Positions 1 to 37,200 of a stretch of 64,000 nt of DNA are shown here, piece by piece. The notes below the pieces were generated by a model. That model did not search any database and had not been told where the DNA came from. It was given only the letters and a program-made list of their open reading frames with translations. Position numbers and translations under genes: made by a program. The stretch comes from Sarcocystis neurona (Eukaryota > Apicomplexa > Conoidasida > Eucoccidiorida > Sarcocystidae). The stretch covers positions 641,840 through 705,839 of the forward strand of contig KL647319.1 of assembly GCA_000727475.1 (NCBI GenBank). The letters are read 5' to 3'. Within the stretch, counting starts at the first letter, position 1, and every line of letters starts with the position of its first letter.

Positions 1-1507
1 GCTGCTGCTCTGCCTCCTCCTGCTGCTGCTGCTCTGCCTCCTCCTGCCGCTGCTCTGCTTCCACCTGCTGCTGCTCTGCCTCCTCCTGCCGCTGCTCTGC
101 TTCCACCTGCTGCTGCTCTACCTCGTCCTGCTGGTGCTCTGCGTCTCCCGCTGCTGCTCTTGTGCCTGCTGCTGCTGCTCCTCCTTCGCTTCCTGCTGCT
201 CATTCTCACCTGCTTCTTCGATACTTCCCCATGCTCTCCTCCAGCTCTGCTTCTTCCCAGCACTTCTCTTCTTCCTGCGTCTCTTCTACTTCTTCGGTCT
301 TCTTCCCTTTTGCTTCTGTTCACCAGATCTCTTCTTCCGCTTTCTACGTCTCTTCTGCTTCTCCGTCTTTCTTCTTTTGCTGCGCATTCCTTCTGCTTCT
401 TTGCTTCACTGCCTTCTTCCTGTCTCTGCGTCTCTTCTGCTTTTCCACGCGTCCTTCTTTTGCTGCGCCGTTTGCTGCCCACGTCTTCCGTCTTCTGCTG
501 CCCTCTCACTTCTCTCTTGACTGCTGCCTTCTTTTTTCCCCTTTTTCTCTGCTCTGCTGCACCTGCTGCTCCCTCCCCTCCTCGCCGGCACCTTCTTTGT
601 CCTCAAAATCTGCTGCTGCTCTGCTCTTCCTTAATGCTGCGGCGCCCTTCCTCTTCTTTTTTGCTGCTGCTATTGCCGTTGGATTCTCTTTTTCTCCTTG
701 TTTGTTCTTATTCTTTCTCCTCTTCTTCTTTGTCTTTTTCTGCTCCTTCTCTTCCGCTTCCTCTTCTCCCACGACTTCCTTTTCTTCTTCTTTTCGTGGC
801 CCTTCCTGTCCTTTGTCTTCTCCTGTCCTTTTTTTTTCTCTACTTTCTGGTCTTCTACTTCCTTGCCTTTCCTTGTACGCATGCTTCTCCCCATGACGTC
901 CCTTTCTTCTTCTCTCTATTCTCCCTCTATTTTTTTCATTTCTTTGTTATCCCAACACTTCTCTTCTTTTCCCGTTTGCCTTCCCCACCATCCGTCTCTC
1001 CTGGAATTCCTGTCCCTTCTTTTCTCTCCATCTTTCCCTGTTCAACTACCACCCCGTTGACCCGACGGTTCAGGCGTTTTTGCCTAGGTGTATTCTCCCG
1101 GCGTCCACAGCAAAATAGAGAGGAACCCCTCGGCCCTTGCTATTCTTCTTCTTCTTCGTTTCTCTTCAAGGGTTCTCTTTACCTTCCTCTCCGTACGTCT
1201 CCTCCTCCTTTCTTCTTCTTTTTCTCGTTCTTCTTTCGTTCACTCAGAAGCTGCCTTGGGAATTCTTCAGGAGCTCTTGGCTCTTCAAAGCTGTTGCTGC
1301 TGTTGCTGCTGCCACGCTTCCTCCCTTCCTGCTCTCCTGCTGCTTCTTCGTATTTTTCTTTTCTCGCTTTCTTCTTGTTCTTCTCCGTCTTCTCCTCCTC
1401 CTCCTTCTCGTCTTCTGCACCATCTTTTGTCCCGTGTGTCCTCCCTTTCTGCCCACGGTCGTAGCTCTTCTTCGTCCCTGTGGCCTTTCCGTCCCCTCTT
1501 TCTTCAG
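1..1507 (+). other. 3' part of an IFT122 intron: CTG repeat, then a long pyrimidine tract
   Basis: No coding sequence is supported. The first ~190 bases are CTG/CTC triplets with an imperfect ~45-base tandem unit (copies start near 34 and 79). From ~190 to ~1500 the plus strand is almost purely C and T, with no purine run of length. It ends in a strong acceptor (T/C tract then CAG at 1505-1507) directly before the first recognised IFT122 exon. Open frames here rich in Ser, Leu, Phe and Cys are the product of stop-poor pyrimidine sequence. The upstream exons (WD40 repeats) must lie left of the window. Confidence 0.7.
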
Positions 1508-1969
1508 GCAGCCTGGTGCGGGAGTGGCTGCTGCCTGCACTCGTCAGATATATCAAAGTTGTAGGGGGCCCGCCAGGAGGCGAGAGTGTCTTGGCCGGGT
1601 TGAAAAACGGAGAAATTCTGGAAGTCTTCATCAACCGTCCCCAGCCGTTGGTGCTGCTCAAGCTCCATCCCCAGGCATGCGTGCACTGCGTCGATATTTC
1701 TCCGCTGAAGACGAAACTTGCTGCTGTCGCCCTGATGCCCCCCCCGCCTCCCCAGCAGCAGCAGAACCGGCAGCAGAAACAGCAGCGGGGAGGCCAGGGC
1801 CATCAGACCGGAGCAGACACGCAGAAGAAGCAGCTGACTGTCTACGACTTAGAACAGCAGCAGGTTCTTTATCAGCAGCAGAACGTCGACTCCGTCGCGT
1901 GGAACGTCGCCGCAGATGAAATGCTCGCCTATACATGCAGCGCGACCAGCACTCTCTACATTCGATGTG
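1508..1969 (+). CDS. IFT122: IFT122 exon: end of second WD40 propeller
   Basis: Acceptor TCTTCAG ends at 1507 and donor GTAGGG starts at 1970. The exon starts with two bases of a split codon and ends in phase 1. The REW...RYIKVVGGPPGG motif is followed by a poly-Gln insertion (near 1755-1800) and then VYDLEQQQVL and DSVAWN, which match consecutive blades in animal IFT122. Confidence 0.85.
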
Positions 1970-4874
1970 GTAGGGCATAAGAAAAGGCGGCAGACGAAAA
2001 CAACCCCGGCGATATGCAGGGCAACAGCGAGCAGGCAGCAGCACACAAGGCGGCAGTAGACACCCCGCAGCAGAAGGAAGCTCAGAAGGCCTTGCTGCTG
2101 TTTTGCAGGCTGCGATAGAGCAGCAGACGCTAGTGTTGCCGGGCAAGAGAGCACGAGGGTGCTGCTGGGGCTCTTCACACCTCTTCCCCCATGACCTCCT
2201 GCTGCCGCTCTTACGCCTGCGTTCCTGCGCGTCTGCACCTGCTGCTCTTTGTCTGGGAGATTTTGCCTGCAGCTGCTGTTGTTGTACAGTCTGTCTTGCT
2301 TCTCTTCTTTTCTGATAGCCGGGCCCGCTCCGCTCTCTTTCTGCTGGAGTTGCTTCTTTTTGCTGCTCTTGCTGCTGTTGTCGCCTCTTCTTTAGTGTTT
2401 TCCTGCTGTTTTTTCCTCCACCTCTGCTGCTGCTGTGCTTCTTCTTCCGCTACTTCCCTCACTGCCACAGATCTCCCTCCTCCTGCTGCTGCTGCTTCTT
2501 CTCTCGCTGCTCTCTCCGCTGCTGCTTGTGGCGTGGCACCTGCTGCTTCGCTACATTCTTCTCCTTGCTTACAAGATGCCTTCTTGCTACTTATTCTTTT
2601 TTTCCTGCTGCTGCATCTTCTTCTGCTCAACTTTCCTCACGGCATCACCCGCAGCTGTCTCCTTTTGTGATGCTTCTCACTGCTGCACGTTTTACCTCCC
2701 CTCGTGGTCGCACCTGCTGCTGCCTTCCTACCGCTGCTGCGGCTGCTTTTCTGCTCGGCTGCTTCTCCCGCCGCCTCACCTGCTGCTGCTGCTGCTTTTC
2801 TGCTCAGCTGCTTCTCCCGCCGCCTGACCTGCTGGGGCTGCTGCTTTTCTGCTCGGCTGCTTCTGCCGCCGCCTCACCTGCTGCTGCTGCTGCTTTTCTG
2901 CTCGGCTGCTTCTCCCGCCGCCTCTCCTGCTGGCGCTGCTTCTTTTCTGCTCGGCTGCTTCTGCCGCCGCCTCACCTGCTGCTGCTTCCTTTCTCTGCTG
3001 CTTCTGCCGCCTCTTCACCTGCTGCTGCCCGACACTTGCGACTGCAGCGCTGGACTCTCCTGCTTCTTTGTCTGCATGGCTTGCTGGCAGGGCTGCTGGC
3101 CTCACACTCGCAGAGACTCGAAGGATTGATCCTGGGCTTCCGTGGGTCGCGGGTCTATTTTTTGAGAGCCAGTGCCGTGGGAGGCGAGGACGTGGTGCTA
3201 TCTGCCTCATTGCACGCGCTGCTGCAGCAGCAGGACATTGCTGGGGCGTACTCGGTGGCTTGTCTGGGAGTGAGTTCTGAAGACTGGAGGCGTCTAGCGC
3301 TGGCTGCTGTTCAGCAGCTCGACTTTTTGCATGCGCGGAAGGCGTTTCGTCATTTGAAAAGCTATCGTGGCGCCTGGTTAGTGCAGATGGTCGAGACGGA
3401 GGTGGAGGAGTATCGCAGCAGAAACAAGGCGCAGCAGCCGCTGCAGCCCAAGACGGCGAAAACGACCAGCGCCGTAGGGGAAGAGAGACAGCAGGAGAAA
3501 GACGAAGGAGGAGAGAACGCAGGAAGCAGCAAGACGCAGGAACAGCGGCAGCCGCAGCTGCCCGAGAAGCTTCAGCAGCAGCTCGAGCAGCAGCGGAAGC
3601 AGGTTGAGAGGAGGGAGCAGCACAACTGGGGGGACGAGAGCGAAGAGGAGCGGCTGAATCAGCAGCAGAAGATGAAGAAGCAGGCGGAAGAACAACAGCA
3701 GCAAGAAGAACAGGAAAAAGAGGGAGGGAACGACCCAACGGAGCAGCAAAGGAAGAAGCAGCAACAAAGGCAGCAGCAGCAGCAAGAAGAACAGGTGGCG
3801 CTGGCAGTGAAGCAGCAGGAGGAGGAAGAGAAGAAGGCAGCGCTCTGCATCGCAGCAGCGCTCGTGGCTGCGTTCGAACAGAGATATGATGCCGCAGCAG
3901 AATACTGGGCATGCGTCGGACAGTACCACAGAGCAGCTTCAATGTTCAGAGACCTGCGACAGCATGTGAAGGCAGCTTACTGGGAAGCCGAAGCAGCAGC
4001 AGCAGCAACAGGCCTGCGAAGGCTGCAACAGCAGCAGCAGCCGCAGCAGCAGCCTCCGAAGAAACTCGAAGAGCTGGTGGCTTCTCGCTTGAACAGCAGC
4101 GGAACGGCTGAAGTGCAGCAGGTCAGCAACATGTACACCTGCCGCCGCTGCTGCAAGAGTGCAGCAGAAGCTGTGTGCTGCTGCTGCGTGCCTCTCTGAA
4201 GGAAAACCCTGGCAAAAGAAAAATGTTTCTGCGGCCTCACAAGTGCAGAAAATTTGTTTTGCACTGTCGCCTACTGGCGTGTTATATAAATCTACACAAA
4301 CACGAAATGGCGGGGAAACAGAACGAACTGTATGTGCGCATATACTTCTTGGTGTATATATATATATGTTTTCCCCACCTTGCCACTGTACTGCAATATA
4401 TACACACATGTATATGTGTACACATATGTGTACAGGTGTGTCCACATACCTACACACGGGGGTCTGTATGTGCACCCTACTACTATATACTAATATATTG
4501 CCATTTCTTTATACACGTCAAGAAACATATATATATATATATATATTATGTAGACAGATAGATAGATAGAAACGTAGCTAGAATTACATATACAGAGAGT
4601 ATCACACATATGTACATATATATAGAGAGAGAGATTGACACATATCCAGAAACAGATATATATGTACGCCTATATTTCGACAGACATATATATGACAGAC
4701 ACACACCTATGCCTATAAGGTTTAGCGGAGATGAGAAGAAAAAGACAAGTTCGTTCTTCAGCGTCGGCACCTCCTTAATCCCCGGAAATCTCTGTTTGTT
4801 GCTGCACACATTGTCCACTTGACGCTCGCCATCGCACTGTATCAGTAAGCCAGAGTAAACATACACGTGCCCAC

Positions 4875-4906
<32 letters not shown>

Positions 4907-5048
4907 CTGCAAACACAGTCGTCATTCTACACCTATCTGCGCATATATATATGTGGATATCTATCTGTTTACCTATATATTCACCTATTTCTCCGTACCT
5001 ATCAACCTGTACATATATATAAATATATAGTTGTACATCTCTCTTTCA

Positions 5049-5081
<33 letters not shown>

Positions 5082-8000
5082 GGCACACACCTATCTTCCT
5101 ACATAATTCTATCCACCTGTATATCCCCTGTATAGATGAGTACACAGCTCCCTCTCTCTCTCTCTATATATATATATATGGAAATGTGTGGTTGTGTGTG
5201 TGGATTACTTATTTGAATGAAGTGTCTATTTTTTTTGCCTTTTGCTTCGCACTCAGGCGTCGCCCCTTCTGTCGAACGCTGCTGCCTCTACTCCTGCTGC
5301 TGCTGCTATCGCACCTGTCGCTGCTGCGGCTTGGACGCCGGCTGACACGTCTTCCGCTACAGCAGCTCCTGCAGCTGCTGCTTGCTCTGCAGCAGTCGAT
5401 CGCCCGTCTGCGTCTGCTGCTGCTGCGTCTGCTGCTACTGCTTCTGCTGCTGCTGCAGCTCTTGCCTCCCCTGTTACTTCCGCTGCTGCTGCCGCTTCTT
5501 CGCTTGCTGCTGCGGCTGCTTTATACGCGAAGACGCGGCAGTGGGACAAGGCGTTGGAGTGGTATGCGCGTGCCGGGGCTGTCAGCAGCATCATGAAGAT
5601 AGTTCGAAGCACTTCTCCTCCTGCTGCTGCTGCTCATGCCTCAGCAACTGCAGCAGGCAACGGCGAACTCAACCAAGCAGCAGGGACAGCCGCAGCACCG
5701 GCCCCGAGGGGGAGAAGAAGACAAAGAGGAAGAACAGCGGCAGCGAGGCGCAGATCTACAGTAGCAACGGGACAAGCTGAAATGAGAAAAGGAGAACAAG
5801 AAGAAGCGGCAACAGACGAAGAGGAGGAGAAGGAAGAAGAGGAAAAGGGAGAGAGAGACGAGGAGAAACGAAGAATTTTTTTGAAGGCAGCAGAAGTTTT
5901 GACAGCAGGAGGCTACTTTCACTTTGCTCGGGAGACGCTGTTGAAACTGGGGAACCAGCAGTTGCTGGCAAAACTTCTTCTCGAACATGGGAAGACGGAA
6001 GAAGCTCTTGCGATTGCCAAGCAGGTGTGCGGAGCAGCAGCAGCAACAGCGAAGAAGAAGAAGAGGAATAAGTCAGAAAGAGCGGCTGAAGAGAAGACGC
6101 AGTTGTGGGAAGGCAACAGCAGCAACAGTAGAATCTGCTGTGGGGGAGACTGCGAGAAAAAAAGAAGCAGGAGCAGCAGCAGCTGCTCAACAGCAGCAGC
6201 GGAAAGGGGAGGAGAAGGAGGATGACGTCATTGGGTAGCAACAGCAGCAGAAACAAAACGGTAGCAGGAAAATTGTGTAAATTTGTCCGGCTTCCTTTCC
6301 ACCAACAGCCCCGCCACTCTTTTAGAGAAGCAACCCGCTTCAAAGTTACTCGTCTCGGCATGCAGCCTAGTGTACTCCCAAGTGAGGAAGCATCTACAGT
6401 CGTAACAGAAATTCTCCACGCATATAATCGGGTAGCTGTATCTGCATGCGAAATTGCTCGGAGCTCCTTTGCTGTTAATTCGGACACTGCCGTTCAGCAG
6501 CAGAGTTAATGCAAACCGACGACTCTTTCTCTGCAAATCCGTCGGGTCGTGCTGCTGCTGCTGCAGCCAGGCCGTTTTCTCTTCACGCACGTTCCTCTGG
6601 GGATCGAAAAGGCAATGTGCAGCTGTCGCCTTTTCTTTTCGTTCCTCCAGAGTTACACACTACACTACAACGTAGACATTCTTGTCAAGACAGAGAGAGA
6701 AAATGAAATGTCGGTGGCGAGCACACGCACCAATGTGACCTAACCCAGCGTATCGGAGAGATGTTCTTGACCATATATATATATATATATATATATATGT
6801 ATCTAGAGGAAGAAAGAAAGGCAGAGAGAGAGAAAGAAGGAAGCAGCAGCAGCAGAAGAAGGGAAGGAAAACTGAAATGTGTATGTACACGTGTGAATTG
6901 CTGCCGTAGAGGAAGGTGGAGAATACTTGTGGGTGTGCAGCTGCTGCGTGCTGCCTGTTTCCCGTAGATGATTCTTCCGCGTTCGGTGTCTCCCGCCTTC
7001 GGGGAGCTGCCTCTTCGTCTACTTGTTGCATGCACTACAAAAGCTGCTGCCTGCCCAGCAATATTGCCACCTTGTATATACTTCCTTTAATACCACAGAT
7101 GCGTATGTCTGTCCTTTTCCGTCTCTTCCCGCCCAGACGACCTATGCAGCGTATATATCAAGAGAGATAAACACACAGCAGCAGAAGATAGGGAAGTGCC
7201 GCGAGAGACACGGGAAGAGTCAAAGAGACAGAGAGAAGGAGAGAGCAGAAAAGAGAAGAAAGGGCGAGAGAAAGAGACGGAGAAAGACAGAGAGAAAGCT
7301 TGGTATATGCATGCCAAGGGATCGACCGGGCAGTGTGTGAACCGTTGCTCACAGCCGTTATTCCTCTGCTCCTCTCTTCCGGTCTTTTTGGGGGTACGGG
7401 GGCACACAGACGCTCTCCGAGCGATTTCTCACGCATGCGTTTTCCTCATTATCTTTGTGTTTCCTCTCAGCACGCAAATTTGGCCGGAGAAATAAGTCTC
7501 GCCTATGGGAGGAAGTTGGTAAGAGAGAAGAAGTTCGAAGAAGCCGCAACGGTGCTGACACAGGCAGGACACTACGAGGAGGCCCTGGTGTTGCTGCTGC
7601 AGCTGCTGATGCTCAGTCTGCAGCAAGGCCACTTCATGCTTGCAGCAAGGAGCTGCTGGGCATGCGCCAAGCTCTTCCTCCATATAAAGTATTCTCCGCG
7701 GCAGAAGCAACGGCAGCAACAGGGCCGCAGTCAGCAACACCGGAAGCAGCAAGAAGCAGAAGAAAAAAACGACGAGAAAGAGGCGCTCTTTTCCCCCCCA
7801 GCTGCTACTGTGGCCGCCCACAAGCTGCATCCTAACATGCCTGCACCGAAGAAAGCAGTGGCAGGGGCACGGATGCAAGCAGCAGCACCTGTAGAAGAAA
7901 CCGCAGCACCAGTAGCAATGCAAGACTGTTGTGACTACCCCAGACAAAACCCAGGACAGGCTGCTCCACTGCCTAATTCCTCTTATTCTTCTGCTTCTGC

Positions 8001-11000
8001 TGCTGCTACGTCTACATGCCCGCCGTTTTCTGTCTCTTCGCCTCCAGCCTCCCTGCCGCCTGTGGCTTTCTACGGGTACCGTCTTTTCCGGCGGCTGGGG
8101 GAAATTTATTTTGCGTACCACGTGATCCGCCGAGAGGAAGAAACGGGAATCTTCCGGGTGCATGCAGAAACCCAGACAGTTTCTGCTCTCCGAATCTGTG
8201 TGCTATTTAACGCGTCCGTTTTCTTGTACAACTACCTCTTCGCCCCTCTCACTTCACCTGGGTCGAGAAAGACGACTTCTTCTTCCTCGGGTGCGCCTTG
8301 CTCTTCTGCTGCTGCTGCTGCCGGCCGTCCTTCCGGAGAGTCGCCACCGACGCCCGTGCAAGGCAACGGAAACGACCCCGTGTCAGCGAGAAGTTCAGCA
8401 CAAGCGCGGACAGAAACAGGTGGTAGCAGCAGTCTTAAAGCAGCAGCAACAGCAGCATCCCAAAGTGCCGCTTCCTTTCCCGCAGGCAGAGGGTCTGACG
8501 CGCACGTGCGGAGCAGCAGCGGCAGAGCATTTGTGTCGGCCATTCCGCACGGGAAATTGAAAGCCCTGCTGCAGCGGAGTGGACTGATCAGAGCATCAGC
8601 AACAGCAGAGGAGGAGGATGAGGAAGAGGAGGAAGCAGCGGCAGCAGCACCGCCGCCTGGCATTCGAGAGAGCTTTGTGCTGCTGACCCTGGCCGCTAGC
8701 GCCTTGCAGCTGAAGGCCGCAACCGTGAGTCTCCTACCAACCGCTACTGCGTCCAGAGAGAAAAGAATTACATAGATGTGGCAAGTGTGTAGACTGAGGG
8801 AGAGGCTCAGGAGAAGGAAGAAAAAAGAAGGAAGAATAAGTAACAGAACGTGGCCGCACGACCTAGGAGAACGAGCAGCCAGTGCCTACACGGACCTACT
8901 TTGGTACACACACACGTGGACGTAACTGGTACAGAAAGTACTCAAGCCTGTACACGTATCTACATCTACGCATATGTAGACAAGTGTTAGGAGAGAGCCC
9001 TGCGTATATTTGTTTTTATACGTGTGTTGTTTGGCAGCGTTTCTTCATGCGGCGCAGTAGCGAACTCCTGCGACGTGCCCTCGGAAAGTTCCTCCTCGCA
9101 TGCACGTCGGCGAGCACAAGGCGGTTTGCGCGTGCACGAGTCCCTTTTGAGTAAACTTAGCTCATGCATGCGACTCCTTTTTTCGCTGCAAATGATCAAT
9201 AGCGTCACTGCTCGGACTGCGTGCTGCGTTTGCTCTAGAAAAAGGGACTGCATGCAAATGGCGACTTTGCGTGCGGCTAGGTCCTTCGCACGTCACCCAC
9301 TACTACAACTTGGAGCTCGAAACGCCTTGTAGCTAGCTTTTGTCTTTCCGCAAGGCTCTGCGCGCAGGAAGTCGCTTTTCACTTGGAGATTTGAACTGCG
9401 TGAGGGTACCCCACACCGTGCATGCAATCAGCTCCTCTGCGTGCAGTGGCGTACAACCTGTGGCTCGAAGTTGGAGTCTACCTATGTCTCTGCGCCAGAG
9501 TAGTTTTCTTATTTAGGTCCACGCATTTACGCTCAGCCAGTCGCCCTCCTTGCAGCTGCAGTCGTTGCGTGTACCGAGCTTCTCGGATGAATTCGCGTGG
9601 TTTACATGGGACCAGCTCCTCTGCAGGCAAACTGCCTCCCGGATGCTGCCACTTGCTTCTCACACGGGTAGATTCTCCGCATGCAGCGAGCCCGTTGAAA
9701 ATCTCACGCCCGGACGCACACGCCTTGTTTTTTTCTAATTATAGAGAGAAGCGAATCTAGCTCACTGCAGACCGCCGTGTTGTGTGCTCTCTTTCCGAGT
9801 GGCATTCTGTGGGACGCCCTCTACCCTACGCCTGCCTTCCTACCAAGCTTTCGTGCAGCGATGAAAGTTTACTGCGCATGCAAGCTTGCGTTTTTTACTG
9901 TGTAGCTCTCACAGACACAGTCAGTGGACAGCCTAATGCATCACACCCTCAGCCTTCTTGAAATGCACCCGGGAGGTGCTCTCCAGCTGCGCCAGGCTCG
10001 TGTCCCAGTTCTGGGAGACACAGCGATTCTTGCATGCACCGGTGTAGCTGCTCTTAGAAGGGGTAAGAGTGTCTGTCCGCGACGATATATAGGGCAGAGA
10101 ATCAGGTGCGAAAAAGCCAGATGGCCGTAGACGGAGTGCCGCCTTCCTCTTTCTCTTTTTCTGACGCGTGTGCTGCTGCTGGTACCGGTGCTGCTGCTGA
10201 GGGTCCTGCAGGAAGGGCGCAATGCCTGCCGGCGACTGCAGGCGCTGCGTCTGCCTGACGCATGGCAGCACAGCGCGGCACAATTGGTTTTGCAAGTCAA
10301 GTCCGTTCCTCTTTTTTCCGTTGCTGCTGCGTCTTCTTCTTCCTCTCGAATTCGATGGAAACTAGCAGATCTCTTTGCGTGCGCCCGCTGTGGACACAAG
10401 CAAGGCGTGCTTGCTGCAGAACGCGTACCGCTTACATTCAGCGAGTGCTGCTCGTCCTGCGGGCAGGTGCGCGTGAGGGAATTTGGCGGCTTCTCTCTCG
10501 TCAGCGGCATCGATTTCCGCATGCAGCGGCGGAAGACAGCAGGGGGAGAAGCAGCAATCGCAGGCGCCGACGGAGCAGCAGAAGCCGCACGCGTGAAGCA
10601 GCTGCTGCTCGCAGCGCAGCCTTTTGCGAAGAAGACCGCAGTCCAAAGTACGCAGGCGGAGACAGAACAAGCCGCATGGCCTCGTGCACATATATACATA
10701 GAGAGATAGAAGGATGTAGACACATGCAAAGAGAAAAAGAGAAAGAAAGATATGTAGACGCACGCAGAGACGCTGATATATATCTAGAGAGAGAGAGAGA
10801 AAGAGAGAGATGCAGATACATGCAAAAATGTTGATACTTCTAAGTATCTGGACACGTCTGTAGACCTAGAGAAATCTACATACCCTTGTACTGTGATTCC
10901 ACCGTAGACCTCCTGCGTCCCTGTGAGTGTCCATGTATCTATCCGCGCAGTGTTTCGACTAGATACGAATCACCACGCGTGCTGACGTACGTTTCGCGGG

Positions 11001-13213: not shown

Positions 13214-13496
13214 CGTGTCTCACACACGCGCGCGAGCTACGCTCACCGCATGTGAAGAAAAAGAGAGAATAAGACGGCGGAGCAGCTCAACCGTCTATCT
13301 GTATACCTGTCAGTATTGCCGGTGTATACCGACGCCGAGGAGGCGCGCCCGCACGCATATGTATGTATACGCATATGGGGAGGCAAAGATTGACAGACAC
13401 AGAGATACATAGAAACAGGCGGACGTACGCATCTATCTCTCTTTATCTATACATATGCGTATGTATGCACCCGTCAGTATAGACATGTTCGTACTT

Positions 13497-13538
<42 letters not shown>

Positions 13539-20065: not shown

Positions 20066-20102
<37 letters not shown>

Positions 20103-22233
20103 TATATATATATATATAAAGAGACATGTATGTATACATACACTGAGAGAAGGAGGAAGAAAAAGAGCGAAAAATATGTGCATGTAAATATATATATATG
20201 GAGAGAGATCGCCAAATAGACAGACATATATATATATATATTTATATGTAGAGAGGAATATCGCCAGACAGGCAGACAGATACATATATGTATACATATC
20301 TATATAGAGAGATATGCATATAGATGGATAATATAGAGACGAGGAGAGACAGAGAGAGAAGGAGAGGAAGAGAGAGATGTAGAAATGCCTGGATAAATGA
20401 TGTACAGAAAGACATACAGGAAATATACATACATATACACACATATATATTGATTGATAGATATATGTATAGTTTTGTATATATTAGGCGATGTTTAGTA
20501 GAGAAGACTTACGGCATGAAAACATTCATAAATCCAGAGAGGATTTGTAAGGAAGAACTTGATTTCCGCTGCACTTGGGTATTGCTGCTGCTTCTCTACC
20601 TCCTCCTTGGCCTGTTGCTGCTGCTGCTGCTTTTTCTTCCGCATGCTGCAGTGCTGCTGCTGCAGGCAGCCAGCCTTCAGCTCCACCTCCTCCTCCTCTT
20701 CCTCCTTCTCTTCTGCCTGTTGTTGCAGCTGCTGCCCCGAACGGCAGTTCTGCTGCTGCGGCTTCTTGCAGTCAGCGGCTTCCACCTGTATCTTCTGCCT
20801 TTTCCTCGGCTGCTTCTCTTGCTGCCAGTTTTCTTGTGCGTCGTCCTCTTCTTCCTTCTCCTGCTGCTGTTTCTCTTCTTTTCTATTTGCCAGTTGCCGC
20901 GCCGAGGACTGTGACTGCTGCAAGCACCGGGCTTCTTCCTCGAGGAAAAGCCGCAGCTGCTGCTGCTTCTCCTGCAGCTGCCGAATCTGCTGCAGCACGT
21001 GGGGAGACAACTGCTGCGCTGTACAGACACCGTAAACGACAAGAGGCCTCGGCAGCCGGGCTGCTGCCTCCAGCTGCACGACACACAACAGCAGCAGCAG
21101 CAACAGCAGCAGCAGGAACAGCAGCAGGAGCAGCAACAGCAGCAGCAACGGCAGCAGCAAGAGCNNNNNNNNNNNNNNNNNNNNNNNNNNNNNNNNNNNN
21201 NNNNNNNNNNNNNNNNNNNNNNNNNNNNNNNNNNNNNNNNNNNNNNNNNNNNNNNNNNNNNNNNNNNNNNNNNNNNNNNNNNNNNNNNNNNNNNNNNNNN
21301 NNNNNNNNNNNNNNNNNNNNNNNNNNNNNNNNNNNNNNNNNNNNNNNNNNNNNNNNNNNNNNNNNNNNNNNNNNNNNNNNNNNNNNNNNNNNNNNNNNNN
21401 NNNNNNNNNNNNNNNNNNNNNNNNNNNNNNNNNNNNNNNNNNNNNNNNNNNNNNNNNNNNNNNNNNNNNNNNNNNNNNNNNNNNNNNNNNNNNNNNNNNN
21501 NNNNNNNNNNNNNNNNNNNNNNNNNNNNNNNNNNNNNNNNNNNNNNNNNNNNNNNNNNNNNNNNNNNNNNNNNNNNNNNNNNNNNNNNNNNNNNNNNNNN
21601 NNNNNNNNNNNNNNNNNNNCAGCAGCAGCACAGCAGCAGCAGGAACAGCAGCAGGAGCAGCAACAGCAGCAGCAACGGCAGCAGCAAGAGCAGCAACAGC
21701 AGCAGCAAGAGCAGCAACAGCAGCAGCAAGAGCAGCAACAGCAGCAGCAGGAGCACAGCAGGGGCGACGAGACGAATGAGAGCAACAGGAACATCGGAGA
21801 AGAACATGTTTTGGGGGGCTTGTATATCTGAGGTAGCTCTACACTTGTTTGGAGAGTTCGGAGGGCACTTTTGATGCCGCAGCGCCTCGTCTCCCTATCA
21901 GAATAGATGCCTTACACAAGACAAGTTCAGGAGTGATGTGCAGTGGGAAGACGGAGAGATAGAGAGACAGAGAGAAAGCATGAATTTTCCTGCTTACAAG
22001 GGCACGTCTTGTAGACTCGCAGTCACACAAAAGTTCTTCTAAGAAGTAGAATTTATATATACAAATTTATGTATATGCGCATGCAGATGATAAATACGTC
22101 AACTGGCAGAAAACGCGGCGATACCACATTTCTGAAGAATTTGTGTGCCTTTCCTCCCCTATTCAACATGCATACATACATAGACGTATACACTTGTTCT
22201 TCTATATATAGATCTTCTTCGTACTTGTTCACC

Positions 22234-22269
<36 letters not shown>

Positions 22270-25200: not shown

Positions 25201-28200
25201 CAAATAGACGCAGCCACAAGTCCCCACCTATCTACGTGTATATCGAGAGGTTCAGAGTTGTAACACGTAGAAGTAGACACGTCTATATACATAGAGGAAG
25301 AAGCGTATATATACACACAACTATATATATGTATTTGTAGACACTAGTATTCCCATATACATATACTGACACACATACATATATGTAAGTGGCACTTGTG
25401 TATGTATATAAATATATATATACACGTAGGGGAGTATGCTTTCTCTTATATACAGAGAGACATATATATATAAAGAGATAGAGGTAGGTAGATAGATACT
25501 GTTACATATACATATATGTAGATGCATATATAAGCGATCGATAGAAGAGAAGATATATATATGTGTGTAAGGGGAGATATATATATGTATGTGTATGCGT
25601 GGATAAGTATGTCTCCACATATAGAGTGATACAAATATATATAAAGAATGTATGTGGTGCTTCTTGAAGAGCCTCTACATACATGAATAGAGATAGATAG
25701 ATACATACTGTGGCATATATATATATGTGTGTGAATATGTAAGGGGTACATGTTCAATATATATATATATGTACCTACACGTAGAAACATGTGTTGCCAC
25801 ACGTATATACATATATGAAGTACTTTCCATAAAACATATATATATATATATGTATATACGTCTACATGTATACGGATATACATATATATATATATGTGAG
25901 GGATAGATATGAGGTAAGAAATGATGAGAAGGATGAAGGCGTATGAAGGGAAGGAAATCGACCTACACAAACAGAAGCAGATGTATATGTACGACACAAA
26001 TTCATACACATTTATAAATAGACAGACAGCCAGACAGAGAGACATAGACAGGTATATATATATACACATATATATACACATACATATATATACACGTAGA
26101 TATACACATACATATATATACACATACACATACAGATATATATGCACATATATATACACATACACATACAGATATATCTACACATATATATATACACATA
26201 TATATACATATATATACACATATATATACACATATATATACACATATATATATATACATCTATATACACATATATATATATATATACATGTTGGGAGAGG
26301 TCTTCAAATATGTGTAGTGGGAGACAGAGACACAGAGAGGCAGAGAGACAGAGAGAGAGGGGTATATATACACACATGTATATACACATATATATATATA
26401 CATAAATATATACGCATATATATATATATGTATAGGCACATGTAAGGAGGGGTATTCTGGAGGGACCGAGGGATAGACGGGGAAATGCGCATATATGTGT
26501 GTGTGGGTGGAGGTCGTTTCGAGAGGAGGGCAGGTATTCCTGCAGATATGTAAATCGACCGAAGAAAAGAAGAGGAAGGTATATGGGGGGAAACTCGAAT
26601 ACTGACGTATATACATCTATTCAGAGACGGCTTTTATGCCATACATATATATATCAATACACACACAGAGAGACAGACAGTTAGAAGAAACACCTATTCA
26701 CATGTATATATATAGAAAAACAGACGGATAGATAGATAGATAAAAAGAAGAGGTATTCAAATATATATGTAGAGAGACAGAAAGCCCACTCGTTACATCC
26801 ATATATGTTGAGGTGGATATGCAGATATATATACAGAAACAGATACAGAGTGAAACACGTATATATATATATGTATGTATGAGTATATGAGAAGACAAAG
26901 CGAGAGGGAGAGACAGGAAAGTATTTGCGTGCATACATATTTATAGAGAGACGTATTCATATATATATCTGTATAGATGGAAAGTGTATATGCGAGTGTG
27001 TATATATGAATGTAGAGACAGACATTGGAAGGGTGTATACACGTACGTGTGTGTGTGTGTGTGGGGTGGACATCGTACTATTATATGTATACGCGTGGGA
27101 GAGAAAATAGTTTTTACACCCCAATTCTCTTTGAATGCTTGAAGGACAGAGAAGACAAAAAAAACAGAGAGAAAGACCCAGAGAAGATGAAAAAGAAGAA
27201 CTCGTCGACTTTTTTGCATGCGGAGGTGTGCGCGGTGTTTCATTACGTTGCTGCTGGCAGAAGTGAGAGAGTTAAAGCGGAAGGGATACAGACTGCTGCA
27301 CACACGCAGCCGCTTCAAATTCTCCGCTGCTGTTGCTGCTGCTCGCTGCTGCTCCTGCAGCACCAGCACCGACATCCTGTCGCCTCCTGCGGGTCGTCCT
27401 CTTCTTCCTGCTGCTGCTGCATGCGTATCCTTCTCCTGCTTCTCCTCTTTTTCCTTCTCCTCCTCCGTCGATTTGACCTTCGCAGGCCCCGCTGCTGTCA
27501 CCTCCACTTCTCCTTCTCGAGCCCCTGCGACTCGCTCTGCGTCTCCTGCTGCGGCTCCTGCTGCTGCTGCGGTGGCTGCTGCCGCCCGGGCGGCCGTCTG
27601 CTGCTGCTGCAGCCACTGCAGCACCGCCGAGATGTGGACGACCGCGCGACGGTGCTGCGGCTGAATAAGGCAACAGCAGCGCAGCAGCAGAGAAGGGCGC
27701 AGCGACTTCCTGATCCAGCAGCAACGGCAGTCACAGCCAATCGCAACGACTGCTGCTGCGGCAGCGGCACACATCGCAAGGCCCGCTGCTGCAGCAGAAG
27801 CGCGAAGCCCGCAGCACTGCACCAGAGCAGCACTAGTAAGAGTCGAAGCAGCAGCAGCAGCAAGACTCGCAGCAGCAGCAGCAGAAGTTGTAGCAGCAGC
27901 ATCAGGAGAGGCACCGTCCCGCAGTAAAGTGTGAGCGAGCAAGAACAGCAATTTCGGTCACACTTTCCCTTCTTTTTCTTCTTCTCAGGGGAAGCCCAGT
28001 GCATGCAGAGCAGGCCTTTCACCCCGACAACTCTACACCGACGTGTTGCTGCGGCAGTTTCTTCGGGAGAACGTCACTTCAAGTGACAGCAGGAGTTTCA
28101 AGCAGACACAAAAGACGTGTCGCCGCTCTTTCAAACAAGCAGCAACAGCACGCGGCAGAAGAGAGAGAGACTCGTAGGTGCGAACGTTCGGTGGGAACGC

Positions 28201-31200
28201 ATGCGTGCCCGGATATATTTGCGAAAATTCATATAAGAATTTGTCGGCAAGTAAAAGCGGTGCAGCAGCACTGACGAGAAAACCTGCTGCAGCAGAGAAG
28301 CAGCAAAACATGTCGACAGAAAGCTACACGAAGGGGCACGCAGCTAGGCATACACATATATACACCTCAATTCACCCATGCATCTCGGACAAGCCAATGG
28401 ATACGCATATATATATATATATGTATAGATATGTAGAGCTTGATGCAGGCATAAATCTCGTGCATGCACCTGGATACATATGTATATATATATACACGTA
28501 TCGAGCTCGATGCATGCATACATCTCGTGCATGAATCTGGATAAATATGCAGATATATATATGAGTTTGATGGACGCAACATTTCGAGGAGACAGAAGAA
28601 GAAGCCACAGAAACAGAGAGACAGAAAGGCACACATATATTTATATATGTGTGTAGGTGTAGTATGGATAAAGGGAAGCAACAAATATGCCCCGTCCTCT
28701 TGTCAAAAGAGAAGAGAAACGAACTGGCCAAAAGGAGTCTCAAAAAAACGCAGAGAAATCCGATATATGTAAGGGTGACGTACATCTCTGCTTCGAACGT
28801 GCCTGCATCTTTTGCGGCCTGTGTGATGGCAGCGGGATGCGCAGAAGTGACGTCCTCTGGCGAGTTGCTGCGCTTCTTGAGGGAAGAAGAGGCTCGAATG
28901 AAGGGAGAGTAGAGGGGACAGCAGGAGTGGATAAATGGGCAGCAGCGCACTTTCGGCATCGTCCCGCGCATGCGGCGTAGCAGCAGCAGCAGCGACAGCG
29001 GTGAAGAGACAGCAGCTGCTGCTGCTGCTCAGTAAAACTTCCTGCCTCTTACCAGCGGAAGCAAAGCGTCGAGGTCCGGATGAGTCACACAGAGCAGAAT
29101 TGCTTCCTCTTCTTCTTCTTCTCCTGCGGCAGCTCCTGCCGCCGCTGTCTGCTGCTGCTGCGAGGCACCGGGGGCTGCTGCAACACCTCCACATGTCGCA
29201 GACTCCTCTGCTGGCGAAGGCAGCGCCAGCAACGCTGCGACAGCAGCAGCAGCAGGACAGTAGCAGCAGCACGGGACAGCAGCAGCAGCACAGGACAGCA
29301 GCAACACAGGAGGAGATGGGGAGAGGTGTTGGTTGTTGTTGAAGAGCTGCTGGTTCAGCGACATTGCTTCTGTGTCCCCACGTACCGACGTAAATAGAAA
29401 TATACGAGGAACATGCATGCGTCTACTACGTGTGCGTGCGCATATACATATGAATATAGAAGTATTTGTGTTGTGGAGAAGGGCCGGTGACGCAGAGGTG
29501 TGTTCGAAACGAATTCCTCCCTGCGCCACATCGACGTAAACGCAGCAGCAAATCGTAGATCTACGAAGAGACGGAAACACACACATGTGCGCGGAGACGG
29601 GGAGAGAGACGGAGAGACGGAGAGACGGCCAGGCCCCCCCCCCCATGAGGAGGTGACTCGCGCATATCTTCTTCCGCCATATACTAGGGAGCAGCAGACA
29701 GGGGGAAAAGTCTAGGAGGTGGGCGTCCGCGGCTCTCTCTATATACACAACACGTATACCTCTTCTCCGTATCCACCCATGTACGTATACAAGAATGCAT
29801 GCATATGTGTATGTATGTGTGGGGTGGAGAGCTCTGTAAATGTAGATATCTGTTCGACATACCCATGCATATATATTTATTTATTTACATACATATCTCT
29901 GTGTGCGTGTGCCTGTTAGAGGGGGAGAGTTCACACACTTTGACGTGGAGAGGAAATCGAAGAAGACTGCTGGGGAGGGCAGGTGTGAGCCGCTGGATGG
30001 GGCATGCAAAAAGAGACAAAAAAGAGACGGGAACACTGCGGGAAGAGTGCGGGAAGAGTGCTGCGCGCCTCTGTGTCGACCGCCTTCCCTCATATATCGG
30101 GGTGTACGTACACCCGCCAAAATGTTCCGCCGGCACACACATACACGCATGCATGCAAGCCAACTCGTAGAAAAACAACGCAGCTGCAAGTATTAAACCC
30201 GTGTGTGTACCCACTTCCATTTATATATAGAGAGAGAGGGACAGGGAGGGACATATATATATATATACATATATACATATATATATACGTATAGATAGGT
30301 AGATAGCCAGAGAGATAGATAGAGATAAACAGACGCAGATGTATATAGAGAGAGATAGATAGATATAGATAGATAGATATAGATAGATAGATAGATGGAT
30401 ATAGATGGATAGATAGATATAGATGGATAGATAGATACAGATGGATAAACAGATAGATACAGGTGGATAGATAGATAGGATAGATATAGTTGGATACATA
30501 GATAGATACAGATATATATACATATACATATACATATATATATGTATAGATGCAAACATGAATATATAGGTATGTGTATATATGGAGAGAGAGGCATACA
30601 TACATGTATTATATAGATAGAGAGAGATTCATGTAGAGAGAGAGCGAGACAGGGAAATATATTGATATATATATATGTTTATGTGTGCAAATTTTTGAGG
30701 AACACGTTGCGTATTTCTCTGTGAAGAATCCCACGTATGGTGCTCCCTGTGCACGCTGCTGCAGCTGGTGCTGCTGCTAATAGTGCTGCTGCTGTTGCTT
30801 CTTGGCTCACTGCTGCGACTGCCGGTGTATTTGGAGCTGCTGCTGCTGTTTTTGCTGTTGCTGCTGGTCCCCTGGGGAGGCGCAGGCGGAAAAAGACTCC
30901 GCAGCCGCTCGGCCACGTGTGGGAAAAGTTTCCGCAGCTCTTCTCCTCGCTGTTGCATGTTTCTCCACACCTGCAGCAGCAGCGCGCAGTCCAAGCACTC
31001 GTTCAAAAGAGACGCGACGCAGAAAAAAGGAAGGCAAATAAGAAGTTCCGCGGAGCTGCAGAGGGCGGAAGATGTGTGCGCCGCTCTCGGCGGTTAATAG
31101 AGAGACAGAGAGACGAAGCAGCAAGAAGAGACACGTTAGGAGACACAGAGGGAGAAACTGCTGCCTTGAACAGCAGACAGAGGGAGAGGAGCAGCAGCAG

Positions 31201-34200
31201 AACAGCAAGTGGGAGAAGAAGAGACGGCGAGACACGGCAGCAGAGAGGGAGACGGAGACACACAAATACGTGGAGGGAGACGCAATGAGAGGGAGACGAG
31301 ACACCGAAAACAGCGAGGGGGCCGGAGACGGAGACGGCCGAAGAGAGGGAGACGAAGGGAGACGGGGAGACGCGAAGGGCAGGAAGAGCGGAGAATGGTG
31401 GGCGAGGCGGAGACGGGGAGGCGGGGGACGGAGACGGGGAGACGGGGAGACACATGAAGGGCAGCAGCAAAAAGAGACGGGGCCCTTTTTTTTACGAAGA
31501 GGGAGGTATACGCGCAGAGACACACACACGACAAGAGAGAGACAGCAGCAGCAGAGGGAGAGGAACAGCAGCAGCAAAATTGTCTTCTGTGTGGGTTGGA
31601 GAGACCGCTGCGTCCCTTCTGTCTCCTGCGACGCAGCAACACCCCCCCACCTCTGCCTTCTCCTCCTTTCTGTCCATCTCTTCTCCCCTGTCTCTGCTGC
31701 TGTCGCCGTCTCCTTCGAAGAGCAGCCCCCCCGCAGAGCGAGACGAGACAGCGAGACGCGTCGGAACGGACGGCGAAGAAGAGGACCCCCCAACACACGC
31801 GTGCGAAACCGAAACGAGGGACGAAAACGGGCGCGAAGACGAAGAGACGAAGAGCAGCCGGTGATGCTGCGGCCAGAGGTGTGGTTCATGCAGAAGAAGA
31901 AGAACAGCAGCAGACAGATGTGCTGAGAAATACGGAGACGGAGGTGTGCATGCGCATGTCGAGGGAGAGACGCAGACTCACTTCCTGGAACGGCAAGAAG
32001 CGGGAAGGCTCCTCGCCTGCATGTGGCGCTGCGGCATGCTCGAAGACACAAAACTTCATCTGAAGTTTCCCCTCCACCGCCTGCTTTCTTCCCCGGTCCT
32101 CCCTGCCGTCCTTCTCCGTCTCCTGCTGCTGCTGCGCGTGCTGCTGCTGCTTCGGGCTGCAGCAGGGGGGCGGAGGGAGGGCGCGCGGAGCAGCAGCTAC
32201 CGCAGGAGCGGCGCTGGCGACCCGCGCGGGGAGGGAGAGGCAGCAGCAGGAGCAACCCGCGCAGCGGCAGGAGCAAGAGACGGGAGAACAAGAAGAAGAA
32301 GGAAAGGAAGAAGAAGACGCGAGAGACGGAGAGAGGAGAGAAAATGCCCGCAGCAGCTGCGCGAGACTTGCAGGAAGTAGCGGGGCCTTGATCCGCATGC
32401 GAACTCGCGGCTGCACGAGCAACAGCAGCAGCACAAAAAGTGCCTGGTCAACTTCAGCTGCCGCGTCAAAACAGCAGCAGAACACCAAAAGCAGAACAGC
32501 AGCAGGAAAACAGCAGCAGGAGAACAGTAGCGGGGGAACAGCAGCGGGGGAACAGCAGAAGAGCAGCAGATCAGGAGCGTCCGGGCGTGGCGCGCGCCGA
32601 GCACATCACAAGAGAGCAGCAGCAGCAGCCAAGGAGAAGTGCAGCGCGGCAGCAGCAGAAACGTTGACGCGACGTCGACAGGGACAGGAAGCGAAGCCAC
32701 AACAGCAGCAGCAGCAGGCGAAGACGCAGTAGCGAGAACTGCAGGAGGCGCGGCAGCAGCAGGAATGCAAGAAAAGCAGAAGGAGAAGAAGAAGCGCAGG
32801 AGGTGCAGCAGCAGACGAGGAGGAGGAGAGGGAAGAGCTACCTGTTTATGACGTAGCGGCAACCCGCTAATTTCTCTGTCGATTATCTCCACGCTGGCGA
32901 CTGCGACGCGTGCGTGTAGCACGGGGAAATTCGAAAGAAGAGAAAATACCTGCAGTAGCAGCAGCCGAGCAGCACCAGCAGCAGCAATAGCGGCAGCGGG
33001 AACAGCAGCAACAGCAGCACTGCAGTAGGTGAAACGCAGCAGTGGCAAAGAGCAGCACGACAGCAGCAGGAGCAGCAGGACCGCATGCAGCCGCATAAAA
33101 GAACGCATTACTCACTGCAATAGCATAGCAGCAGCAGCGGAAACGAAACGGTAGCAGCAACAGGAACCCAGCAGCAGCAGCAGCAGAAACCCAGAAGCTG
33201 CAGTTACAACGCAGCAAAGCAGCAGCAGCAACGTCAGAAGGCACCCAGAACATCAGCCGTGCTGCTGGTGCGGCACCTGCCCCTCCCCCCCCCATGCACA
33301 CGTATATATATGTGTCTGCAGCAGTTGATTTACTTGACGACTACGAATGGCAGCCAAAAGTTGTCTACTTCTCTCAAAACTACTCTGTGCAGGCATTCCC
33401 ACGTTTGAAGAAGTCGCCTGAAAGAGGAAGTTGCGTCTCTGCTGGACGAAGAGTCAACGACCTGGAGGAGTGATGAACGACGCAGAGATCTGCAGAGGCC
33501 GGGCGGGCGCAGGCAGGACGCGGGCGCAGGCAGGACGCGGGCGCAGGCAGGACGCGGGCGCATACAGGGGAGTTTCTCTACAAATTCGAAGGGAAGGTGC
33601 AGATACCTTGACAGGGATGCACACACACATATATGAAGAAAACGTGTTGCTTGGCAGTATATATGTGAAGCAGGGAAAGTCGCTGCAGGTGTCTACGTCC
33701 AGCAGCAGGGCGGGGCTGGTACGTGTGTAGGTGTCCGGTCGGGTGTACGTACACCGGAAATAAGAGGGCAGCAGGTGCTCTCTTCTTTTTTTACCTGAAC
33801 AGGCTGCAGTGAAGCTGCAGGACAGGAATCCACATCCTTGTGCCGCTCCTGCTGCCGCTGCTTCTTGTGCTGCTGCTCTTTCCGCTGCTTGAGCTGTTTT
33901 TGCTGCTGCTGCTGTTTCTGCTGCTGCTCCTGTTTCTGCTGCTGGTGTGCCTGTCGCTGCTGTTGCTTTCTTCGCTTTCTCTTCTCCTCTACTTCTTCTT
34001 CTTTCTCTTCGTGGTCCCCTGCTCCTTCTGCCTCTGCTGCCTGCTGCGAGGCACTTTTCAGCGGCAGCGGCTGGCGTGGATCCTGCAGCACCTGCTCCCC
34101 CCCCGCGTGCCGCTGCCTCCCCTGCCCCAGCAGCGCCGTCTGCTGCTGCTGTCGCTGTTGCCGGTGTCGCGGCGGCTGCTGTGCTCCAGCAGCAGGCGGG

Positions 34201-34235
34201 CAGCGGGCTTGGGCGGCAGCGAGGAAGGACTCGAA

Positions 34236-34267
<32 letters not shown>

Positions 34268-37200
34268 AGTTTGCTGCAGCCAGGAAGCGTCGCGAGGAAG
34301 ACGCCAGGCTCCGCAGCAAACGCAGCAACGGCTGCACCTGCTGTGTCCCTGCGGGGAGGAAAGTGGGGAGGAGAGTTGAAAGCGGCACAGAGGCAGCAGA
34401 ACAGCAACAGCAGCGGCGGCGCGAGACACAGGGAGAGCGACAGCAAGTCAAACAGAGGGAAGTACACGGAAACCAAGGCGGGAAAGGCACACACGTATAC
34501 ACACAACTCTTCAGGAAGCATGCAGACGATAGACTTCTGCATGCAGATGATGTATGCCCCCGCTAAGAGAGAGAATTCATAGTGATCGACACCTAAGAAG
34601 GCGACCTGCGCAGATCTACATTAAAGTTAATATTGCTGCCTCTTCGCAATTTCCTTTTCAGTCAACAAAGGGAAAAGGACACAGGAAAAGGGATATATAC
34701 ATATATACATAGATAGGGAAAAACACACATATAGAGAGATATAGAGAAGCACATACACACAAATATATAAATAGATACATAGAAGGCGAGAGACGGAGAG
34801 ATAAAGAAAGGTAGACACACATATATATACATATTTATGTACACATATATATATAGATATACACATATATATATAGATATAGATATATGTATATATATTT
34901 ATAGAGACAGCCACATACTCACACCCATACGTATCTGTACAAAAATATACATATATATAGAAAGGAATACGAGAGAGATAGAGAGAGAGAAAGGAGGAAA
35001 TACACGATAATACATAGATAGACATATGCCTATATAGAGACATATATATATGTGTGTGTATGTGTGGGCACTATCTACACAGGTGGGAGGGAAAATGAGA
35101 AGAAATGAGAGTATAGAAGCTTTCTTGGGTGAAGTATCTCCTTTGGGTCGCATGCAACCGTAACAGGGGGACGAACCTTACCTTCAAAGAAAAGCATTTT
35201 GAAAGAAAAATCCTGAGGAAGGTCTAGAACCTTATTAACAGCAACACGACTCACACGCTGCCCTTGCTGCACCTGTTGCTGTTGTTGCTGTTGCTCCTGC
35301 TGTTGTTGCTGCTGCTGCTGCACCAGTTGGTGCTGCTGCATCAGTTGGTGCTGCTGCATCAGTTGCTGCTGCTGCACCAGTTGCTGCTGCTGCACCAGTT
35401 GCTGCTGCTGCACCAGTTGCTGCTGCTGCACCAGTTGCTGCTGCTGCACCAGTTGCTGCTGCTGCACCAGTTGCTGCTGCTGCACCTGTTGTTGTTGCTG
35501 CAGCTGTTGCTGCTGCTGCGGCTGAAGCTGCTGCTGGATCTGCTGCTGCTGTTGTGGCTGCTGGAGCCTGGTTGTGGGGCCAGAGCAGCGGGTCGCAAGT
35601 TCCCCAGCACCAGCAGCAGCAGGACCAGCAGAGCAGCCTCTGACCGGGCCGTAGACATTCGAGAAATGCAGTTGTTTGTTCCTGAGCAGCAGCTGCCTGC
35701 ACGTACGGCGGCGGAGACGATGAAAAAGAGAGTAAGAAGCAGCAGCGGCACCAGCATGGCAATGCGCCGCACATGTGAAGCAGGCAGCAGACGTGCTGCT
35801 GCAAAAACAGCAGAAGCTGCTGCAGCTCCGGCGCACCAGCAGCAGAACTAGGAGCGCCGCCGCGCAATGACAACAACGGCGGAACAAAACAGGCACACAG
35901 CAGCAGCAAGAGCAGCAGCAGCAGCAAGAGCAGCAGCAACAGCAGCAAGAGCAGCAGCAGCAGCAAATGCAGCAGCAGCAGCAAATGCAGCAGCAGCAGC
36001 AATGCAGCAGCAGCAAGAGCAGCAGCAGCAGCAAGAGCAGCAGCAGCAGCAAGAGCAGCAGCAGCAGCAAGAGCAGCAGCAGCAGCNNNNNNNNNNNNNN
36101 NNNNNNNNNNNNNNNNNNNNNNNNNNNNNNNNNNNNNNNNNNNNNNNNNNNNNNNNNNNNNNNNNNNNNNNNNNNNNNNNNNNNNNNNNNNNNNNNNNNN
36201 NNNNNNNNNNNNNNNNNNNNNNNNNNNNNNNNNNNNNNNNNNNNNNNNNNNNNNNNNNNNNNNNNNNNNNNNNNNNNNNNNNNNNNNNNNNNNNNNNNNN
36301 NNNNNNNNNNNNNNNNNNNNNNNNNNNNNNNNNNNNNNNNNNNNNNNNNNNNNNNNNNNNNNNNNNNNNNNNNNNNNNNNNNNNNNNNNNNNNNNNNNNN
36401 NNNNNNNNNNNNNNNNNNNNNNNNNNNNNNNNNNNNNNNNNNNNNNNNNNNNNNNNNNNNNNNNNNNNNNNNNNNNNNNNNNNNNNNNNNNNNNNNNNNN
36501 NNNNNNNNNNNNNNNNNNNNNNNNNNNNNNNNNNNNNNNNNNNNNNNNNNNNNNNNNNNNNNNNNNNNNNNNNNNNNNNNNNNNNNNNNNNNNNNNNNNN
36601 NNNNNNNNNNNNNNNNNNNNNNNNNNNNNNNNNNNNNNNNNNNNNNNNNNNNNNNGAGCAGCAGCAACAGCAAGAGCAGCAGCAGCAGGTCATCGTACGA
36701 GGCTCTGGAAGACTCGTGAAGGAATGCAGCAGCAGCGAAGACCGGAGGAGGAGGAGCAGCAGCAGCAGAAGAAGGCCGAGCAGCAGCAAGACACACGCAG
36801 CAGCAGCAGAAGAGCGGCTGCAGCAAGAAGAGCAACGGCAGCGGAAAGAGTAGCAGCAGCAGTCACCAGCGAGAGAGCAGCACCGGAGAGGGACACTGCA
36901 GCTCTCTCGCTGTCTTCAGTGATGTACTGCACACATTTTTCTTCCTATTTCAACGCATGCAAACTTATGCAACCACACACCCCGATATCATACAGAAACA
37001 CCTGTATACATATATATATATATGTGTAGATGTACATATATTTATCTATCCCTACCCACATATATGTATATATATATGTATGCCTGTTTCCCTCTCTCTA
37101 TATGTGTGTACCTTTCTGTCTCTTCCTACATATATATATATATATGTAAAGGGGACTCCTTCCGCGTGCGAAGTGACAAGAGAGATATTCACGCATATGA

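Follow-up and report, generated by a model that had tools for sequence, protein, structure and literature searches.

Opposite orientation of a CAG/CTG repeat in the two halves of introns in a coccidian genome

General features of the window

The window is a 64,000-nucleotide stretch of genomic DNA (G000:C32:641840-705839) from a genome totalling 122,989,501 bases in 74 contigs. It contains a plus-strand IFT122 gene at its left end, a putative minus-strand gene or genes, and arrays of a CAG/CTG repeat in both. Here we describe how this repeat is oriented within genes. Read in the sense of the gene, its orientation tends to depend on the position along the intron and to be opposite in the two intron halves. 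A preliminary description of the window had instead proposed that CTG-sense repeats mark the introns before 3' splice sites and that CAG-sense repeats lie mostly in exons. Genome-wide, (CAG)7 is matched 228 times with overlaps counted (121 times forward, 107 times reverse), CAG/CTG being the sole repeat counted.

A myosin reading frame of the genome (L039) shares 90% identity with a protein filed as an unverified contaminant of Colinus virginianus (northern bobwhite), and the next named match among the matches listed is from Eimeria magna with 57% identity (both among the best 120 of 3894 matches). These matches place the host among the coccidia. The bobwhite assembly is described in part of one source as containing many coccidian contigs (PMC5244568). 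That the nearest match of L039 is a bobwhite contaminant suggests close kinship with the bobwhite coccidian.

The plus-strand gene was identified as IFT122 from Pfam profiles PF23377 (E=3.3e-34) and PF25295, both matches of the latter scoring below the curated cut-off (Table 1). An NCBIfam search with one IFT122 exon returned zero matches. The acceptor at 1506-1507 reads CTTTCTTCAG. Exon borders were taken from the donor and acceptor letters, and the trimer counts used borders that differ by 1-2 bases. The minus-strand gene models lack Pfam support and are unproved; a Pfam search with a protein joined from some of their pieces gave zero matches.

Table 1. Features of the window with sense-strand CAG and CTG counts
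Feature	Position	Strand	CAG and CTG counts	Basis and remarks
Putative intron, 5' end unlocated	1..1507	+	Bases 1-1506: CAG 7, CTG 80; runs of at least two, 0 and 17	CTG-/pyrimidine-rich, upstream of IFT122 acceptor (AG 1506-1507)
IFT122 exon, second beta-propeller	1508..1969	+	CAG 27, CTG 13	PF23377 on open frame 1465-1974; donor GTAGGG at 1970, by eye
IFT122 intron, first complete	1970..3090	+	5' half CAG 16, CTG 37, runs 3/11; 3' half CAG 3, CTG 59, runs 0/13	CAG runs confined to 5' half, CTG runs found in each half
IFT122 exon, TPR start, CAG-rich	3091..4121	+	CAG 73, CTG 28	PF25295, E=1.4e-13, on 2319-4193; donor GTCAGC, by eye
IFT122 intron, second complete, repeat-poor	4122..5256	+	5' half CAG 10, CTG 16; 3' half CAG 6, CTG 9	Borders inferred from letters
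IFT122 exon, GCT/CTG-sense alanine repeats	5257..6024	+	CAG 27, CTG 44	TPR matches weak; listed as an exception in the preliminary description
IFT122 intron, third complete	6025..7470	+	5' half CAG 32, CTG 16, runs 6/2; 3' half CAG 19, CTG 12, runs 2/2	5' half CAG-rich; 3' half without CTG excess
IFT122 exon, TPR	7471..8724	+	CAG 51, CTG 42	PF25295, E=8.5e-5, on 7192-8769; donor GTGAGT at 8725, by eye
Putative multi-exon gene(s)	16500..35730	-		Open exon-like pieces at acceptors named in the preliminary description

Repeat orientation around acceptors and in exons of the window

Sixteen acceptors named in the preliminary description, 13 on the minus strand and three on the plus strand, were counted, with the exceptions it had listed included. 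An AG lies no more than three bases away at all 16, and the one at 17118, preceded by AAG, is a poor acceptor. Over the 300 bases upstream, sense CTG outnumbers sense CAG by 346 to 76, with CTG ahead at 15 of 16 acceptors and at 12 of the 13 on the minus strand. Among the exceptions, a true reversal occurs at 22946 only (CAG 27, CTG 4), whereas the other three are merely repeat-poor, with CTG and CAG counts of 5 and 2 at 25083, 7 and 4 at 28270, and 4 and 1 at 5257.

The placement of CTG-sense repeats before acceptors therefore stands for nearly all named sites, but the count in the window is partly circular. Among the region's YAG sites with at least 60% pyrimidine upstream, CTG exceeds CAG in 60-70% of informative sites; the share is 70% of informative cases where the upstream pyrimidine content is at least 80%, and 30% where it is below 40%. 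Because pyrimidine-rich YAG sites favour CTG, a choice of acceptors by eye from their tracts partly builds in the pattern.

The claim for exons held in part. CAG is modestly ahead in the 300 bases downstream of the 16 acceptors (263, against 205 CTG), whereas the four IFT122 exons are mixed (Table 1) and 145 conserved-domain exon pieces, with 982 CAG and 944 CTG, are without bias or CAG excess; repeat-rich non-conserved exons were sampled in the window alone.

Polarity of the repeat in homology-bracketed introns

Since acceptors picked by tract inflate the CTG count, introns bracketed by homology were analysed. Exon pieces were obtained independently of the tract from profile searches of the genome's contigs with four conserved families, namely kinase (PF00069, at least 138 matches, with 134 of 297 candidates scored), myosin (PF00063, 49 matches), kinesin (PF00225, 52 matches) and dynein AAA_6 domains (PF12774, 39 matches). 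Adjoining pieces with consecutive profile positions formed a bracket (n=126, median gap 969). Sequence was read for 97 of the 126 brackets, and 63 were retained on donor score, reading frame and a codon number no more than three off the profile; the splice pair was never picked by tract. Of the dropped brackets, 29 lacked full sequence, 14 are open in frame (possible insertions), 4 gave no splice pair and 16 had low scores. The 63 introns fall into 41 gene groups (15-kb bins) and have a median length of 799. The p values for the counts upstream of acceptors and downstream of donors were obtained by flipping the CTG and CAG labels per gene group. The polarity ranking, the T/A and C/G ratios and the co-occurrence test used an earlier, slightly different filter that retained 59 of 89 brackets.

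Upstream of the acceptor, CTG prevails at every distance considered. The counts are 118 CTG to 15 CAG at -3 to -40 (p<0.0001), 413 to 203 at -40 to -300 (p=0.0001) and 611 to 318 at -40 to -500 (p=0.0007). The excess is larger in runs. At -40 to -300, runs of at least two number 57 CTG and 7 CAG, and runs of at least three 17 and 1; at -40 to -500 the corresponding numbers are 84 and 11 (p=0.0008), and 28 and 2 (p=0.0086). The bias is reversed downstream of the donor. At +8 to +500, CAG outnumbers CTG by 584 to 391 (p=0.0485), with 59 to 13 runs of at least two (p=0.0187) and 24 to 2 runs of at least three (p=0.0084); by intron, such runs of three show CAG in 8 introns and CTG in 0. The difference between the 5' and 3' halves is significant for trimers (p=0.0044) and for runs (p=0.0022). 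The upstream CTG half of the pattern is well supported, while the CAG half near the donor is weaker, comes from few introns and is moderately supported. The opposite biases of the two intron halves speak against a uniform transcription-strand bias.

With the last 40 bases of introns longer than 120 bases left out, the strongest polarity among 32 trimer pairs is shown by AGC/GCT, CAG/CTG and GCA/TGC, which represent one repeat in its three phases (59 introns). Base composition alone could give such polarity if introns drift from A-rich to T-rich toward the acceptor and CAG and CTG simply follow. Such a drift exists, as log2(T/A) is -0.25 in the first fifth of the intron and 0.71 in the last fifth (59 introns), and GAA/TTC and AAA/TTT are polar as well (0.79). 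The C_G context nevertheless outstrips the other A/T contexts, which weakens the composition-only account: relative to the other 15 X-A/T-Y contexts, the CTG/CAG bias is higher by 0.66 log2 units (0.30-1.09) at -40 to -500 and shifted by -0.39 (-0.74 to -0.03) at +8 to +500, and runs are much more biased than single trimers. We regard composition alone as an unlikely cause.

These results support the view that repeat orientation tracks gene structure outside the window as well. The rule that CTG denotes intron and CAG denotes exon is not borne out. Because CAG-sense runs are present in the 5' parts of introns, orientation follows the position within the intron and not exon or intron identity. 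Equal densities of sense CAG and CTG in introns, which the preliminary description had named as grounds for abandoning its proposal, are nearly found when whole introns are counted (log2 ratio 0.26, -0.01 to 0.55; 59 introns), because the two oppositely biased halves offset each other. The pattern first seen in the window is thus partly confirmed: it is real, but it is half of the whole, and it was seen partly through a circular choice of acceptors.

Sequence context of the acceptor

The acceptors of the 63 introns follow the consensus T-G-CAG; the share with the preferred base is 52% for T at -5, 57% for G at -4 and 76% for C at -3. Directly upstream, AG is depleted as in an AG exclusion zone, falling from about 54 per kb to 11-12 per kb at -3 to -25; it stands at 11-21 per kb within the last 35 bases and at 51-57 per kb past -50 (up to 63 introns). 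CTG density is 43-48 per kb within 35 bases of the acceptor, 23-27 per kb at -50 to -100 and 30-36 per kb at -100 to -300. The last 50 bases have a pyrimidine fraction of 0.57-0.62, with log2(T/A) of 0.95-1.62 and log2(C/G) of 0.03-0.07 (59 introns). As A and AG are scarce and G is not, there is no classical polypyrimidine tract, in which both purines are depleted, and the earlier idea that the repeats extend such a tract fits poorly.

The related proposal that the CUG tract serves CUG-binding or U2AF-like factors as an extended enhancer platform draws support from the peak of CTG density beside the acceptor and from the 17-to-1 ratio of runs of at least three at -40 to -300. The tract, on the other hand, is A-poor but not G-poor, and its pyrimidine fraction is only 0.52-0.62, so that we consider this role very doubtful.

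We favour the explanation that splicing signals sort an abundant CAG/CTG repeat by orientation along introns, and put its probability at roughly 0.55. Selection acting through splicing could account for both biases and for the short AG-poor zone observed here. In the last 35-50 bases, where AG is avoided, a sense CAG run would form a row of false acceptors; CAG runs would be barred there because CAG is itself the acceptor core. Mutant CAG repeats are stated to be able to act as splice acceptors in the part of PMC13313202 that cites Anderson et al. 2024. The opposite-strand form of this repeat, CTG, has neither A nor AG and may thus be tolerated or useful near the acceptor. From -40 to about -500, selection may act against CAG runs downstream of possible branch points, and a CUG-rich tract may be tolerated or mildly helpful. 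In the 5' part of the intron, CTG runs would be disfavoured, because any AG after a CTG tract would make it resemble an early acceptor. This last step is supported by the decoy count of the 5' halves, where acceptor-like decoys are fewer in sense (34) than in antisense (76).

Robustness of the polarity and alternative explanations

The polarity result holds when the profile edges are substituted for the chosen splice sites. Without the five repeat-richest introns, the 3' bias persists for trimers (p=0.022) and for runs of two (p=0.016), and without dynein the p values on the 3' side are 0.010, 0.036 and 0.094. The 27 dropped brackets that were tested belong to the earlier set, are longer than 150 bases and are not among the 63 introns. 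Some of them have an open frame and could be coding insertions; as a group they show the 5' CAG excess (trimers p=0.03).

It is highly improbable that the pattern is an artefact of gene models, with tract-picked acceptors or exon extensions counted as introns. The CTG preference of tract-picked YAG sites, the minus-strand models without homology support and the number of 3'-half CTG runs that could be exon extension (see below) all speak for such an artefact. The homology-bracketed set, by contrast, ignores the tract, and the bias survives both the use of profile edges only and the restriction to runs past in-frame stops. Past the first in-frame stop there remain 60 CAG and 17 CTG runs on the 5' side, and 41 CTG and 14 CAG runs on the 3' side. 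Being beyond a stop, these runs are not coding sequence of the adjoining exon, which weakens exon extension as the whole cause.

Several results weigh against the favoured explanation. Without the five richest introns, 3' runs of three number only 5 CTG and 2 CAG (p=0.53) and the 5' CAG excess has p values of 0.13-0.23; without dynein, those of the 5' excess are 0.06-0.18. The 5' sign test at the level of introns is weak (14 against 6, p=0.12, 59-intron filter), as is the 3' bias in the 27 dropped brackets (CTG 263, CAG 182, p=0.29). As many as 62 of 103 CTG runs in 3' halves, together with 4 CAG runs, are located after the last in-frame stop and before the acceptor and could thus represent exon extension. 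Repeat-coding exons that went unrecognised within the brackets might account for some of the CAG-rich 5' parts. A stop-bounded variant of the test gave no significant bias on the 3' side (CTG 330, CAG 243, 21 against 17 segments, p=0.63) or the 5' side (CAG 584, CTG 470, 29 against 27 segments, p=0.89); we judge this variant biased, because stop-free CTG tracts are selected against when a stop must occur within 150 bases. Within IFT122, a 3' CTG excess is missing from the third complete intron, and in the first CTG outnumbers CAG in the 5' half as well. AG exclusion alone is insufficient, because AG density is normal past -50 and the CTG bias extends to -500. Nor does pure decoy avoidance fit the 3' halves, where there are 56 sense decoys and 34 antisense ones.

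The opposite orientation in the two halves is also what would be demanded if the 5' CAG run and the 3' CTG run of the same intron paired as RNA, joining donor and acceptor and aiding the splicing of long introns. The two kinds of runs co-occur, with 11 of 59 introns carrying both (odds ratio 4.1, p=0.02, Spearman 0.39), and in introns of at least 400 bases the mean pairing energy of the 5' and 3' parts is -151.7 kcal/mol, compared with -137.3 kcal/mol when the 3' part is reverse-complemented. CAG and CTG runs within the 5' half, however, correlate more strongly still (0.50), so repeat-rich introns can explain the co-occurrence. Pairs swapped between introns reach -148.9 kcal/mol, with a spread of 2.2 over seven shifts; the real energy is close to this, and end complementarity specific to the intron was not found. 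Such bridging within individual introns is therefore improbable. A looser version, in which any CAG arm pairs with any CUG arm and generic complementarity gathers the ends of long introns, would make the repeat part of the splicing code, and is very unlikely.

Other repeats of the window

All 1024 N of the window lie in two runs, at 21165-21619 (455) and 36087-36655 (569). Since both sit within CAG arrays, the longest arrays may be absent from the sequence. An exon-like piece on the minus strand, followed by a good donor near 35190, holds a tandem repeat with a unit of about 18 bases around CTGCTGCTGCACCAGTTG (plus-strand letters) at approximately 35310-35500. At approximately 31040-31500 the plus strand carries purine-rich GGAGACGGGGAGACG-like repeats; read along the minus-strand gene they are GTCTCC, and they represent a second repeat oriented as expected upstream of an acceptor. 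Long TATA- and GATA-like microsatellites are located between CAG/CTG-rich blocks, at about 4250-5250, 22000-22850 and 25200-27100.

Relation to known repeat systems and implications

CAG is the main simple repeat of Eimeria and is described as common in coding sequence, where it is read as A, Q or S (PMC9131526, PMC4287421); the A, Q and S runs it encodes there are well described (also in PMC7564333). For E. tenella, 13,389 A, 9,404 Q, 5,350 S and 334 L runs are given in one of these passages (PMC9131526), and CAG repeats coding A, Q and S runs are also noted, in part of a further source, from rabbit Eimeria species (PMC12659853). Where they treat CAG repeats, the corresponding passages concern coding sequence (PMC9131526, PMC4287421) and say nothing on orientation along introns, the subject of the present pattern. 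Among the open-licence papers listed in our literature searches, none had a title or abstract opening on the intron polarity of a CAG/CTG repeat, which is not a claim that it is absent from print.

Several known systems bear a partial likeness to this pattern. The AG exclusion zone lies between the branch point and the 3' splice site. The AG-poor last 25 bases of the introns described here resemble it, but the repeat bias extends far past the zone and reverses near the donor. In fish, complementary repeats are said to bridge the ends of introns, in fixed orientation at both ends, as reportedly described by Lin et al. in Genome Res. Here the repeat is CAG/CUG, and no pairing specific to the intron was found. 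Human CAG expansions that serve as acceptors, as treated in part of PMC13313202, are similar in that CAG is a ready-made acceptor, a danger that would bar CAG runs upstream of acceptors; they differ in being disease expansions, whereas here a standing pattern covers many introns.

The CAG repeats of Eimeria are without assigned function according to a passage of one review (PMC7564333). If splicing sets the orientation observed here, CAG repeats would shape gene structure, and their orientation would be a usable signal for gene finding where repeats confuse predictors. The pattern would also let the false-acceptor danger of CAG runs, familiar from human repeat disease, be viewed in a natural setting and in many introns.

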